Assembly (NCBI GenBank): GCA_012520295.1
Contig: JAAYOP010000088.1
Location: forward strand, 1-64,000
Reading direction: 5' to 3'
Origin: Clostridiales bacterium
Lineage (GTDB): Bacteria > Bacillota > Clostridia > Oscillospirales > Oscillospiraceae
Length of the DNA: 64,000 bases
Shown here: positions 10,033 to 59,565 of the stretch, one piece after another
How positions within the stretch are numbered: the first letter of the stretch is position 1
Layout: each line of letters starts with the position of its first letter
Translations under genes and position numbers: made by a program
Notes under the pieces: generated by a model
The model's input: only the letters and a program-made list of their open reading frames with translations
Database searches by the model: none
Told to the model about the DNA's origin: nothing

Positions 10033-10165
10033 CGGAAAAGAGAGAAAGGCACATCCATGGAACTTATTACTGTCCCACAGATGTGCCTTATAAAACACTT
10101 CTGCTGCTGATAAAACAGCCCGGCTCCTGTTCCCTTTGCGGGTCTATGGCCTGATCAGTTTGTTT
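10033..10165 (-). promoter_or_regulatory. NiCo (czcD) riboswitch with terminator
   Basis: Read on the minus strand, the leader of the CDF gene carries the elements I recall from the NiCo riboswitch: ACTGATCAGG, a CCC/GGG hairpin, AGCCGGGCTG closed by CAGC, then an AGAAGTG / CACATCT stem followed by TGTGGGACAGT. A second stem, AAGGCACATC with GATGTGCCTT (10046-10055 and 10080-10089) followed by TTTCTCTCTTTTCC, uses the same bases as the last aptamer stem. The two are mutually exclusive, so the terminator should form without metal and read-through should occur when Ni2+ or Co2+ is bound. Confidence comes from motif recall, not a search. Confidence 0.75.
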
Positions 10166-10186
10166 TAAGGGATAAATTCTTTACAT

Positions 10187-10352
10187 TAATTCCAGTTTGC
10201 ACACAATGGATTACGGCGTATCCGCAAACCCATTGAGGCAGCCAATCAATGTATCTGATACGGGCAAGGCAGGTTTGTATTACCCGTCAAAAAGAGCAAA
10301 TTTGCCCTTTTTGCAAATCCGTTTCGCAAACCCATTTGTTCAGTAGGCATTA
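10187..10352 (+). repeat. Multi-hairpin interspersed repeat, copy A
   Basis: Contains the shared family core: GGCAGCCAATCAATGTATC, a CGGGCAA..ACCCGTC hairpin, AAAAAGAGCAAATTTGCCC, and the end CCCATTTGTTCAGTAGGCATTA. It fills most of the 519-base gap between the MoaF-like gene and the NiCo riboswitch. The remaining bases (10353-10511) hold a weak inverted repeat near 10460 and no gene. Confidence 0.75.
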
Positions 10353-13676: not shown

Positions 13677-13763
13677 TCTTTATCAAATCCAAACATCAAT
13701 TCATTTGAAAGCCATTTAAGCTGTCATGCTTCAATAGTGTCGATTCAAATTGTACTCTACTAA

Positions 13764-13903
13764 TAATGCCCGCTGAACAAATGCGTTTTGCAAAACGCAT
13801 TTGCAAAAGAGCGAATCTACTCTTCTTGACATGTATTGATTGGCTGCCTGAATGGATTTGCGGACACACGCCGTAAACCCATTGCCCTGCAAACAGGAGT
13901 TTA
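13764..13903 (-). repeat. Multi-hairpin interspersed repeat, copy B
   Basis: Begins TAATGCCCGCTGAACAAATG and contains the hairpin GCGTTTTGCAAAACGC, AAAAGAGCGAATC, and ATTGATTGGCTGCCTGAATGG. Compared with copy A it is inverted and lacks the CGGGCAA hairpin. It occupies the gap between the MFS gene and the nitroreductase gene (13677-14065), in which I see no coding sequence. Confidence 0.75.
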
Positions 13904-21549: not shown

Positions 21550-21551
21550 TA

Positions 21552-21675
21552 TAATGTCACTGAACAAATGCGTTTTATAAAACGCATTTGCAAAAAGAGC
21601 AAAGTGCTGTTTTTGACGGGCAAAACAAACCTGTTTTGCCCGTTTCAGATACATTGATTAACTGCCTGTGTACAG
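21552..21675 (-). repeat. Multi-hairpin interspersed repeat, copy C
   Basis: Starts at once after the ene-reductase stop: CTGAACAAATGCGTTTTATAA, AACGCATTTGC, AAAAAGAGC..GTTTTT, GACGGGCAAAACAAACC and GTTTTGCCCGTTTC, then GATACATTGATTAACTGCCTG. The far end is truncated. It may also act as the 3' end structure for the ene-reductase mRNA. Confidence 0.8.
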
Positions 21676-25179: not shown

Positions 25180-25764
25180 CTATCTTTTGAGCCTGACGGC
25201 CACGAGCAGAGAAATCAGAAAAGCAAACTGGCCCATTGCAAAATAAGTAAACAGGGATAAAAACCAGGGAGATAAAAGAAAGCAGGAGGCGGTTATCAAA
25301 ACGAATATAATTGAAATAATAATACTCCTTTTTCTGTTTTGCCTTCTTTTTTCATCGGTCATAGGCTTTTTTGGCGTACCTATGGGAGACAGGATAAAAA
25401 CGGCAATTAAATTGACAACGGATATAATGAGCAGATACAGCGGCTTTATATACGGAGACAGGTATATGGCGCCCAGAAGTAAAACCATAAATGAAACTGA
25501 GAAGGTTATAAGGCAGTACAGGTGCCTCGTTGCGTGATATCCGCCCGCAGTCGACCTCAAGGGTATGAAAGCCACCAGATACAGTACGCCCGCCAGGGGC
25601 CTTGAAAATACTGCCGACAGGATCAGGACTGCCGCCACACTTATCACCGTGGATATTATCAGCTCCAACCCATATGCGTAAACCGCCGTGTCCTCCGGCT
25701 TTATGATGCCCTGCTTCGCCATTGCTTCCGATAGTTGACGTGATTTTTTACTTATCAGTGTCAT
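25180..25764 (-). CDS. agrB: AgrB-type peptide-processing membrane endopeptidase
   Basis: 194 residues from ATG 25764 (AGGA upstream). AgrB cuts the AgrD precursor and forms the thiolactone ring of the signal peptide. The active-site pair is visible in STAGGYHATRHLYC: His and a Cys seven residues later, as in staphylococcal AgrB. Four to six membrane segments follow, plus a basic tail. It is last in the minus-strand order agrA-agrC-agrB; the precursor gene lies on the opposite strand at 28002. Confidence 0.92.
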   Translation of the reverse strand: MTLISKKSRQLSEAMAKQGIIKPEDTAVYAYGLELIISTVISVAAVLILSAVFSRPLAGVLYLVAFIPLRSTAGGYHATRHLYCLITFSVSFMVLLLGAIYLSPYIKPLYLLIISVVNLIAVFILSPIGTPKKPMTDEKRRQNRKRSIIISIIFVLITASCFLLSPWFLSLFTYFAMGQFAFLISLLVAVRLKR

Positions 25765-25856
25765 CACCCCATTTTCCTGTGAGCTTACCATTTATCCCTG
25801 TGGTTTGCAATGAATTTGGCACAAACGGCAGATTTCGCGGCATAATTTGCGCCACT

Positions 25857-27143
25857 CTACGCCACTGACTTTTTAAGGGTGTTCAAATGTATGGAGACTC
25901 TGAATATCCCATCCGATTTATCAATCATCATTTCACCTTTATATTTGTCCACGCATCTTTTCACGTTTTTCAATCCGTAGCCCTGTACCTTTTTTTTCGC
26001 TCTTTTGGCCGCCGAGGCCTCCTGGCTGAATGAATTTTCAATCTCATAAAAAAGGAGTTTTTCCTTCTGTATTATACATATTGATATGTGCCTGAGCTCT
26101 TTTGGCAGCAGCTCACAGGCCTCCAGGGCATTGTCAAATGTGTTTCCTATAATAATACTCAGGTCGGGAGAGGATATGTTTATCTCCTCCGTCACCCGGA
26201 CATCCAGGTCAATGGGTATGCTCTGCCTGCGCGCCTTCTGAACACGCTGGTTCAGCACCGCGCTGACTACCGTATTTCCCACATCCACAACATGACCAAG
26301 GTTTGAGAAAACCTCGGTTGCCTGCTCCACACATTCCCTGGCATGCTCTATTTCATTGACATCAATAAGGGACTTCATGGTATTGAGATATTTGGCTATA
26401 TCATGCCACAGCGCCCTTGTCTCCTCCTGGTCTTCCTTTAACTGCTGGAAATACTCCAGCTCGGACTTAAACTGCTGCTCGGCAAGCTCATTTTGTTTTT
26501 TAATCTCATAGGCGCTTTTTATTCTCTCAATGTAAAGAAAGATAATCACATTTATATACAGGACACCTGCTGCAGCAATTGCAAAGTCCATTGTAATAAA
26601 AGAGTCATTGCGATATACTGCCAAGTACATTATATGGCATATGAATACGCTGAACACCTGACATAATAGCAGGGGTATAGCAGCGAAAAGAGATTCATTG
26701 GTTTTCCGCCAGTTGGACAGCCTAATAACAAAATAATAGAAGAAAAGCTGAGTTATTTTTGCAATAGATATAAAAACTATTCTCATATTTCCATATTCAA
26801 ACAATGAATCAAGAGGAAAGCCAAACAAGGCAATAATAAACATATATATATTATCAACCAATATGTTTATCATACATATAAGGAGGGCACAATAAAGAGA
26901 AGTCAAAAGCTTAGCGGAAAACAGTAATTTTGTCATTATTACCATACAAATAAAAGTGTATGCCAGCCTGATAAAGGGATTAACCGGCAAAACACTGAGT
27001 ATACCCAAAACAACACCAAATGCTCCATATATGGCCAGCACTGTTATAATGCCCCTCTGGTATTTGTTGAACAGGCCGGTCAAAAAAATATGTATGAAAA
27101 AAATCTCAACCACTACGGTAGCAATTTCAAATAGAATATACAT
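25857..27143 (-). CDS. agrC: AgrC-like GHKL histidine kinase
   Basis: 428 residues, GGAG eight bases before ATG. Six or seven N-terminal membrane helices (to about 215), a coiled linker, then a dimerisation His region (EETRALWHDIAKYLNTM) and a GHKL ATPase (IGNTFDNALEAC as N box, KKVQGYGLKNVKRCVDKY as G box). This is the AgrC/ComD peptide-receptor class: it should sense the AgrD-derived peptide and phosphorylate the LytTR regulator encoded four bases upstream. Confidence 0.9.
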   Translation of the reverse strand: MYILFEIATVVVEIFFIHIFLTGLFNKYQRGIITVLAIYGAFGVVLGILSVLPVNPFIRLAYTFICMVIMTKLLFSAKLLTSLYCALLICMINILVDNIYMFIIALFGFPLDSLFEYGNMRIVFISIAKITQLFFYYFVIRLSNWRKTNESLFAAIPLLLCQVFSVFICHIMYLAVYRNDSFITMDFAIAAAGVLYINVIIFLYIERIKSAYEIKKQNELAEQQFKSELEYFQQLKEDQEETRALWHDIAKYLNTMKSLIDVNEIEHARECVEQATEVFSNLGHVVDVGNTVVSAVLNQRVQKARRQSIPIDLDVRVTEEINISSPDLSIIIGNTFDNALEACELLPKELRHISICIIQKEKLLFYEIENSFSQEASAAKRAKKKVQGYGLKNVKRCVDKYKGEMMIDKSDGIFRVSIHLNTLKKSVA

Positions 27144-27147
27144 AAGG

Positions 27148-27840
27148 TTATCTCCGCAAAAAGTTATGAAAAGCTTTCAAAAACTCGTCTCTTCTGTATC
27201 TGCTTATCTTCATGGTCAATCCGTTTTTCAAAACAATTTCACTCTGGCTTGCAGAGATAATCTGATCCAGATTGACTAGATAACTGCCGTGGGGCCTGGC
27301 AAAGCCCCCGCCCTCCAGGGATTCCTCAATAGTCTTCAGGGGTGACCTGATTTCATATGTGCTGTTCACCGTATGGATTTTTGTATTGTGGCCGCACACC
27401 TCACAATAGAGGATTTCATCTACGGGTATCATGAATGTTCTCCCGTCATATCTAACCTGCAGCCTTTTGGGCATGATTTTTTTCCATGCGGCTGATAAGA
27501 CATCGGAAAACTCCTCATATTTGACAGGCTTCATCAGGTAGCGAAAGGCCACCTCATACCCCCGTATGGTATATTTGCTGCTCATTGTCGTAAAAACAAT
27601 AAGCGGCGGACGGTCGCTAAATCTCTCCATTATGATTTTCGCGGCATCAAAGCCATTGAGCAGCTTCATCTGAATGTCCAGAAATATAAGGTCGTAAGTT
27701 TCCCCGTCAAGGGTATCCAGCAGCTCCTCGGCGGAGCCGAATGCTCTCTTCTCAATGGAGGAATCATATTTTTCTATATATTCCCATAGCGTGTCGATAT
27801 CCTTTTTGTCATCATCACAAATTGCTATCCTCAATTTCAT
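27148..27840 (-). CDS. agrA: AgrA-like LytTR response regulator
   Basis: 230 residues from ATG 27840. Receiver domain with CDDD near the N-terminus, phospho-acceptor Asp in LIFLDIQMKLLNG and Lys in YLMKPVKYEE; then a LytTR DNA-binding domain (LYCEVCGHNTKIHT, RPHGSYLVNLDQI). It is predicted to activate the divergent agrD promoter through 21-base-spaced repeats at 27891-27921. A TTG at 27858 is an alternative start but has no ribosome site. Confidence 0.9.
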   Translation of the reverse strand: MKLRIAICDDDKKDIDTLWEYIEKYDSSIEKRAFGSAEELLDTLDGETYDLIFLDIQMKLLNGFDAAKIIMERFSDRPPLIVFTTMSSKYTIRGYEVAFRYLMKPVKYEEFSDVLSAAWKKIMPKRLQVRYDGRTFMIPVDEILYCEVCGHNTKIHTVNSTYEIRSPLKTIEESLEGGGFARPHGSYLVNLDQIISASQSEIVLKNGLTMKISRYRRDEFLKAFHNFLRR

Positions 27841-27890: not shown

Positions 27891-27921
27891 GTGCAAATTA
27901 CGTCTCAAAATGTGCAAGTTA
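27891..27921 (+). promoter_or_regulatory. Direct repeats, probable AgrA (LytTR) binding site
   Basis: GTGCAAATTA (27891-27900) and GTGCAAGTTA (27912-27921) differ at one position and start exactly 21 bases apart, two helical turns, as is normal for LytTR-family operators. They end 11 bases before the agrD -35 box. A partial TTGCAACAT lies just upstream at 27881. Confidence 0.7.
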
Positions 27922-27932
27922 TGACAAAACCC

Positions 27933-27961
27933 TTGATTTTGTGTTACTATTCCTTTATTTT
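27933..27961 (+). promoter_or_regulatory. agrD promoter
   Basis: TTGATT, 17-base spacer, TATTTT, directly downstream of the LytTR-type repeats and about 40 bases before the agrD start. Confidence 0.6.
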
Positions 27962-28001
27962 CTAATCAGCGGTATTCAAAATAATGTAAGGAGGGATAAT
28001 A

Positions 28002-28142
28002 GTGAAAAAGTTTCTGATACGTTTTGGGACTCTTCTCTCGACCCTTGCATTGTTCTTTGCGCTGGCCACCAGCGGCTTTGCCTGCATTTATACCACACAT
28101 CAGCCGGAAGAGCCCGCCGACCTGGAGCGCTTCAAAAAATAA
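28002..28142 (+). CDS. agrD: AgrD-type cyclic lactone autoinducer precursor
   Basis: 46 residues from GTG 28002, with a very strong AAGGAGGG six bases upstream. Layout is that of TIGR04223-type AgrD peptides: a basic amphipathic N-terminal leader (MKKFLIRFGTLLSTLALFFA), a small-residue cleavage zone (ATSGFA), a single Cys followed by IYTTHQPEEP, and an acidic tail ending ERFKK. Cys28 would supply the thiolactone; by analogy the ring may be C-I-Y-T-T, but its ends are not certain. It is divergent from agrA-agrC-agrB, with the LytTR repeats in between. Confidence 0.85.
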   Translation: MKKFLIRFGTLLSTLALFFALATSGFACIYTTHQPEEPADLERFKK

Positions 28143-28155
28143 CCTCAACATAAAT

Positions 28156-28186
28156 AATTTACACCTGCCGGAAGCAGGTGTAAATT
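28156..28186 (+). terminator. Perfect stem-loop after agrD
   Basis: A 13-bp perfect stem (AATTTACACCTGC / complement) with loop CGGAA, 14 bases after the agrD stop. It lacks a T-run, so it may act mainly as an mRNA stabiliser. Confidence 0.55.
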
Positions 28187-28261
28187 ATGCAGGAATCTGT
28201 AACCGAACAAATTTAAAATATTTGCTGTAAGTATTTTTTCATTTGGTCTCCTATTTTAATT

Positions 28262-28440
28262 TAATGCCTGGTGTAGCCTGTGTGCAAGGTTTTTGTCGTA
28301 ATCGGCAAAAAACCTTGCACACAGGCAGTCAATCAACATATCTGATATAGGCATAACAGTTTTGTTTTTCCCGTCCAAAAGAGCAAAGCGCTATTTTGGC
28401 AAATGTGGTTTGCAAAACCCATTTGTTCAGCGGGCATTAT
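28262..28440 (+). repeat. Multi-hairpin interspersed repeat, copy D (near full length)
   Basis: Begins TAATGCCTG, then a long hairpin (GTGTGCAAGGTTTTT..AAAAAACCTTGCACAC), the core GGCAGTCAATCAA, CAAAAGAGCAAAGCGCT, GTTTGCAAAACCCATTTGTTC and the end AGCGGGCATTA. The outer TAATGCC/GGCATTA ends are inverted repeats. It fills the gap between agrD and the mscS promoter. Confidence 0.85.
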
Positions 28441-28469
28441 TTATACTGCTTTTTACCTCCATTTATAGT

Positions 28470-36952: not shown

Positions 36953-37080
36953 TGTCTTGTCTAAATATGTTTTTCAAGCATAAATCAAACTATGTAGTTT
37001 GGCATGTGTCTAATTCTAGATGATAAGCGTATAAAATTCAAGCGTTTTAAATAATGTCCGATTTTTCTGGGCATTCATAA

Positions 37081-37271
37081 ATGCTCCGAGCCTCTTTGCC
37101 TGTGACTGTTGTTATGGCATCCTGGCCCGGGCGGCATGCTCCCGGCATGCCGAGCCCGCGAGGTTTTATTGGAAACGGTAAAGCCCTCCTCATTGAAAAG
37201 GAGCAATAACGCAGCACAAGCTGTCCTTTTGTGTCTGCTACCTATTGCTTCCGGTTTCGGAAGCATTTTTT
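37081..37271 (+). promoter_or_regulatory. Moco-type riboswitch with antiterminator/terminator
   Basis: The leader shows ATGCTCCGAGCC, a CGGCATGC / GCATGCCG hairpin nested in a GGGC/GCCC stem, CGAGGTTTT, GGAAACGGTAAAGCC, and a CTCCT/AGGAG stem. I associate this order with the Moco (molybdenum or tungsten cofactor) riboswitch. The closing stem pairs TGCTCC with GGAGCA. Downstream, TGCTTCCG-GTTT-CGGAAGCA-TTTTTT (37246-37271) is a perfect terminator, and its left arm (TATTGCTTCC) can instead pair with the aptamer's GGAGCAATA. Three-way competition is thus visible: ligand binding should free the terminator and shut off the importer genes. Confidence 0.65.
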
Positions 37272-44963: not shown

Positions 44964-45155
44964 AATGCCTGCTGAACAATTCAAAAACGCAACAACAGCA
45001 ATACTTTGACAGCGTTTTTTATTGTTCAGGTGTAAGATTTATGTTGTAATCGGCAAAAAACCTTTCACACAAGCAGTCAATCAATGTATCTGAAACGGGC
45101 AAAACTGGTTTGTTTTTGAAATGCGTTGCAAAACCCATTTGTTCAGCGGACACAG
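44964..45155 (+). repeat. Multi-hairpin interspersed repeat, copy E (longest)
   Basis: Opens AATGCCTGCTGAACAATTC and forms a first hairpin with GCGTTTTTTATTGTTCAG. Then come a GTAATCGGCAAAAAACC arm, GCAGTCAATCAATGTATC, GAAACGGGCAAAACTGG, and the end AAACCCATTTGTTCAGCGGAC. The two ends share AATGCC-YGCTGAACAA in inverse orientation, the best view of the terminal inverted repeats. Confidence 0.85.
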
Positions 45156-59398: not shown

Positions 59399-59565
59399 GA
59401 TGCCTGCATGCAGTTTTTTTGTTGTAATTGGCAAAAAACCTTGCGCACTTGCAGTCAATCAATGTATCTGAAACGGGCCAAACAGTTTTGTTTGCCCGTC
59501 AAAAAGAGCAAATTTGCTCTTTTTGCAAATGCGTTTTGCAAAACCCATTTGTTCAGTGGATATTA
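59399..59565 (+). repeat. Multi-hairpin interspersed repeat, copy H
   Basis: Starts GATGCCTG, has a GTAATTGGCAAAAAACC arm, GCAGTCAATCAATGTATC, the CGGGCCAAACAG / TTTGCCCG hairpin, AAAAAGAGCAAATTTGC and CTCTTTTT, GCAAATGCG..AAAACCC and TTTGTTCAGTGGATATTA. The remaining 275 bases to 59840 hold no gene. Confidence 0.85.

Follow-up and report, generated by a model that had tools for sequence, protein, structure and literature searches.

A divergently transcribed agrD and a predicted AgrA regulon in an Oscillospiraceae genome: a very probable self-inducing agr-type circuit

The first 64,000 nucleotides of contig JAAYOP010000088.1 from a Clostridiales bacterium of the Oscillospiraceae (assembly GCA_012520295.1; this whole stretch is called the window below) contain a short open reading frame (ORF) that resembles agrD, the gene for the precursor of an autoinducing peptide (AIP), and on the opposite strand genes for a response regulator (agrA), a histidine kinase (agrC) and an AIP-processing peptidase (agrB). 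This arrangement raises the question of whether the ORF encodes a genuine AgrD and, if it does, whether the peptide is sensed by the kinase encoded beside it. We are highly confident that the locus represents a complete agr-type quorum-sensing circuit that induces itself. The following features of the pheromone gene are the starting point:

27988-27994, plus strand: agrD Shine-Dalgarno sequence AAGGAGG, read from the sequence, with a 7-nt spacer to the GTG start.
28002-28142, plus strand: agrD, 46-residue AIP precursor MKKFLIRFGTLLSTLALFFALATSGFACIYTTHQPEEPADLERFKK, starting at GTG, assigned by its TIGR04223 match and by alignment with relatives; ring predicted at C28-I29-Y30-T31-T32.
28154-28188, no strand assigned: strong hairpin 3′ of agrD, a possible end of the agrD transcript, without a clear T-run on the plus strand.

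A sequence-only reading of the window had described this ORF as a 46-residue AgrD gene with a near-perfect ribosome site, and had proposed the TIGR04223 profile as a check. Both the ORF and the site are as described, and the profile search gave a match of 28.2 bits (E=1.5e-6), above the curated cutoff of 19 bits and the sole match to this profile in the 2.57 Mb genome. The same reading had pointed to a core with a single Cys followed by a tail, and the Cys, the core and the QPxxP of the tail proved to be kept in related genomes: the precursor aligns with other AgrDs at C28, over the five residues of CIYTT and along the tail HQPEEPADLERFKK. Of the 11 precursors aligned, all share Q34, P35 and P38, and nearly all share C28. 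A short ORF by itself proves nothing, because 125 ORFs of at least 30 aa are found in 12 kb, and the frequency of such ORFs by chance is what speaks for a spurious frame or a dead remnant. The profile score over the cutoff, the strong ribosome site, the conserved Cys and QPxxP and the dedicated promoter boxes (below) all argue against that explanation, to which we give next to no weight; judged from its sequence, agrD is a real AIP-precursor gene.

The promoter regions of agrD and agrB carry tandem repeats of the kind expected for an AgrA-type regulator, as AgrA acts from direct repeats immediately upstream of promoters (PMC4227749) and VirR from tandem repeats just upstream of them (PMC2838878):

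27892-27902, plus strand: AgrA-type box 1 of the agrD promoter, TGCAAATTACG, direct repeat with 21-bp spacing.
27913-27923, plus strand: AgrA-type box 2 of the agrD promoter, TGCAAGTTATG, direct repeat with 21-bp spacing.
27933-27961, plus strand: predicted agrD core promoter, -35 TTGATT (27933-27938), 17 nt, -10 TATTTT (27956-27961).
25820-25851, minus strand: weaker AgrA-type tandem box upstream of agrB, CGCAAATTATG-N10-TGCCGTTTGTG, found by genome pattern scan.
25782-25810, minus strand: predicted agrB core promoter, -35 TTGCAA (25810-25805), 17 nt, -10 TAAGCT (25787-25782).

The agrD tandem-box pattern has a single match in the window, where 0.01 would be expected, and exactly 9 nt separate its second box from the -35, the same gap as at the other sites. 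When the bare pattern was run over the whole genome it was found in six places at ≤3 mismatches, and in all six, which were located before any -35 had been entered into the pattern, TTG or TTT lies exactly 9 nt past the second box. A second scan, with the -35 added, the boxes relaxed and the reversed pattern as control, gave nine matches for box, 9 nt and TTG and none for the control; one of these spans 25808-25851, directly upstream of agrB. Seven of the nine look genuine, namely those at agrD, at agrB and in five other places. The other two, on C15 and C26, are poor: each has 3 mismatches and nearly duplicates the other, and neither was counted in the regulon. From the units of box, 9 nt and TTG we predict a regulon of few AgrA targets, in which both pheromone genes are under positive feedback.

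The same geometry recurs outside this genome. The agr locus of Sporobacter termitidis has a matching box with the 21-bp period and the 9-nt gap, and in this AgrC subfamily most of the divergent promoters show the 21-bp geometry with diverged letters. Over 13 divergent promoter regions (the window included) the mean best 12-mer match at period 21 was 8.85, compared with 6.81 (sd 0.28) for dinucleotide shuffles, 0/500 of which reached 8.85, and period 21 exceeded every other period tested. In a genome of the same genus (G001) there was no AgrA-type box above background and no close AgrC relative, the best match having an E value of 8.7e-18 and 26% identity over part of the protein.

The three partner genes are in the order agrA-agrC-agrB:

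27148-27834, minus strand: agrA, LytTR response regulator (PF04397, 72.4 bits; PF00072, 52.8 bits), start placed by alignment.
25857-27143, minus strand: agrC, membrane GHKL histidine kinase (PF14501, 67.5 bits), with a conserved TR-x-x-WHD phospho-acceptor region.
25180-25764, minus strand: agrB, AIP-processing membrane peptidase (PF04647, 129.5 bits), with invariant H86 and C93 (numbered from the longer ORF).

For two of these genes a longer ORF was considered and rejected. The agrA frame is open to 27858, where the longer start is without a ribosome site, and TTG at 27834 is the likely start because relatives begin there and GGGGG lies 7 nt upstream; the agrB frame is open to 25791, and ATG at 25764 is the likely start because the longer one falls within the predicted promoter of agrB itself. 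This agrB is the only PF04647 gene of the genome.

From these parts we propose the following circuit. AgrB would take up AgrD made inside the cell, cut it after T32 and join the T32 carboxylate to the thiol of C28, giving a C-I-Y-T-T thiolactone, and a further cut would release the ring outside the cell, carrying both A27 and F26, A27 alone or no exocyclic residue. The peptide would be sensed by AgrC, leading to phosphorylation of AgrA, which would then bind the paired 11-bp boxes (21-bp period), placed 9 nt ahead of the -35, at agrD and, in the weaker copy, at agrB. Because such boxes precede both pheromone genes, we propose that agrD and agrB are each autoinduced, and AgrA would in addition switch on a small set of other genes. 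Some observations weigh against this interpretation: a Pfam search gives AgrD no match, its basic-hydrophobic leader is only moderately amphipathic (hydrophobic moment 0.39, mean hydrophobicity 0.82), the -10 of agrD (TATTTT) is weak and the tandem box of agrB carries 3 mismatches. It is also conceivable that AgrB and AgrD produce a cyclic peptide while AgrC and AgrA answer another signal, so that the loop is not self-sensing, as has been reported for AgrD1 and RgaS-RgaR of Clostridioides difficile. We regard this as unlikely here, where kinase, regulator, processor and peptide share one locus and the agrB/agrD pair is the only one in the genome. Taken together, the comparisons with relatives and the promoter features make it very likely that the circuit works and induces itself.

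What else would such a circuit control? The genes behind the AgrA-type boxes constitute its predicted regulon. At C50 (C50:1845, L146, genome G000) the box precedes a gene for a 92-aa protein whose N terminus is like a signal peptide; its body resembles (39%, E=1.8e-7) the last 60 residues of a protein from another genome that has RHS repeats and the RHS core TIGR03696. A gene for a DUF2691 protein follows, and integrase-like genes adjoin. The 92-aa product looks like a small secreted protein similar to a free-standing RHS toxin tip. The target at C14 encodes an 86-aa exported peptide, with the gene of a solute-binding protein behind it, and that at C94 a 111-aa protein without a family. At C16 (C16:817, L144, genome G000) a well-preserved box and promoter are followed by no convincing ORF; a stem-loop and then T's lie ~65 nt past the predicted start, so this is perhaps an AgrA-controlled small RNA. 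Rfam gave no match here. At C46 no convincing ORF occurs before the contig end.

The RHS-tip-like target means that the locus may serve competition, which would suit a peptide that mainly antagonizes other bacteria, by receptor interference or antimicrobial action. Self-signaling agrees with the boxes at both pheromone genes and with a cognate kinase encoded in the same locus, and we consider antagonism as the main role very improbable. Within the self-inducing circuit, a more specific proposal, which we put forward tentatively and hold to be somewhat doubtful, is that agrD and agrB are autoinduced separately, through boxes of different strength, and that a regulon of about seven promoters, including the RHS-tip relative and the small RNA, amounts to density-controlled competition.

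By analogy with Clostridium perfringens and Clostridium thermocellum, the ring is expected to comprise C28-I-Y-T-T32. The C. perfringens ring is CLWFT (PMC12312760; 5R in PMC7492741), and C. thermocellum makes a pentapeptide with Tyr directly after its end and Pro five residues on (PMC5322536). The signal derived from AgrD is thus likely to be the five-residue thiolactone cyclo-(C-I-Y-T-T), perhaps with one or two exocyclic residues, the exocyclic tail being beyond prediction from sequence. A scan of core plus tail in all fetched loci returned 34 distinct types, and in all but one of these five residues run from the Cys to [HY]QPxxP, as counted with a pattern that admitted four to six residues and left other ring sizes outside the scan. 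The sequence-only reading had suggested that the signal could be new. That suggestion holds for the letters of the ring, as CIYTT had no match in the searched literature, in the AIP table of PMC12312760 or among the 33 other core types collected; it does not extend to the kind of signal, which is known.

The divergent placement of agrD, facing away from the regulator, kinase and AgrB genes, was likewise correctly read from the letters. The accompanying remark that this differs from the staphylococcal agrBDCA order is true, the window having no single agrBDCA operon and agrD standing alone on the plus strand, but it does not make the locus unusual, as order and strand vary freely in the family, to which Sporobacter and Flavonifractor also belong. 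A PF04647 match over the cutoff is present in 32 of the 401 genomes of the family, and the orders found include A-C-B-D, A-C-D-B, D-A-C-B, agrBD alone, agrCA divergent from agrBD, and D divergent from A-C-B, so that the order in the window, one of many permutations, is real yet ordinary. Clostridia also have separate agrBD and agrCA operons (PMC12312760). An AgrB query against the named genomes gave no match, whereas the AgrC alignment did.

The D divergent from A-C-B order is common to the window and Sporobacter termitidis DSM 10068, and an AgrC tree groups these two with L076 (support 99/99). That this order marks a single clade was considered and is not fully borne out, as the divergent slot of L076 is without agrD and its contig ends inside agrC. 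L076 (2650-2861) retains a divergent AgrA-type box with its -35, followed not by agrD but by a short pyrimidine-rich segment that closes with a strong terminator-like hairpin, much as though the slot were taken by a small RNA. AgrC-AgrA pairs of the same subfamily with no agrB or agrD found nearby also occur at L078, L084, L086, L089, L092, L098, L100, L101 and others, and the genes on the divergent side of these loci are for lipoproteins or small membrane proteins or are unrelated.

The stretch 3′ of agrD folds strongly (z = -9.2). An RNAIII-like RNA was considered here and rejected for the central part, 28276-28444, which is a copy of a dispersed repeat and has no Rfam match; part of the folding signal is due to this repeat. 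The repeat, ~120-170 bp with a long hairpin, is present about 40 times in the genome, with identities of 73-91%, the copies of the window being at 28276-28444, 10236-10352, 13762-13813, 21551-21674, 45030-45152 and 59402-59565, and it may be either an element resembling a miniature inverted-repeat transposable element or a repeated intergenic element. Elsewhere in the window are a molybdenum/tungsten cofactor riboswitch (37072-37219, plus strand, 72.8 bits) and a NiCo riboswitch (10068-10168, minus strand, 59.2 bits). No AgrC relative was found in viral contigs, and there is therefore no sign of phage carriage.

Agr signaling is best known from pathogens, and a predicted ring, a defined box and a short list of targets make peptide signaling in the Oscillospiraceae directly testable. 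The spacing of the boxes (21 bp from one to the next, 9 nt to the -35) is shared by many relatives and could also serve to predict their Agr regulons.

The system is of a known kind, while its ring sequence and target list appear to be new. Its closest counterpart is the locus of S. termitidis DSM 10068 (L058/L075), in which agrD is also divergent from agrA-agrC-agrB and whose AgrC and AgrA are about 54-55% and 50% identical to those of the window; its core is CFFTA rather than CIYTT, and the pattern used found no separate box before its agrB. Flavonifractor plautii, Pseudoflavonifractor capillosus and relatives (L046/L079, L063/L082 and others) have AgrC and AgrA of the same subfamily and a divergent pheromone promoter, in most with a 21-bp tandem repeat, but carry agrB with agrD in the divergent operon, not behind agrC. 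The Staphylococcus aureus system (agrBDCA, P2/P3, RNAIII) shares the AgrB, AgrD, AgrC and AgrA parts and the AgrA direct repeats (PMC4227749). There, a four-gene BDCA operon faces RNAIII in the divergent slot (PMC12312760), a slot that in the window is occupied by agrD, with no Rfam match in the agr locus. C. perfringens agrBD and VirSR resemble the window in the five-residue ring, albeit of different sequence, and in a regulator that works from tandem boxes immediately 5′ of the -35, its regulon including regulatory RNAs (PMC2838878); its agrBD operon is without two-component genes (PMC2706048), unlike the locus described here. The predicted regulon has a close parallel in the RgaR regulon of C. 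difficile, in which about five promoters with VirR-like boxes include those of agrB1D1, of a short ORF and of the SpoZ small RNA (PMC10602386); AgrD1 has no feedback on RgaS-RgaR, in contrast to the feedback that we propose for the window.
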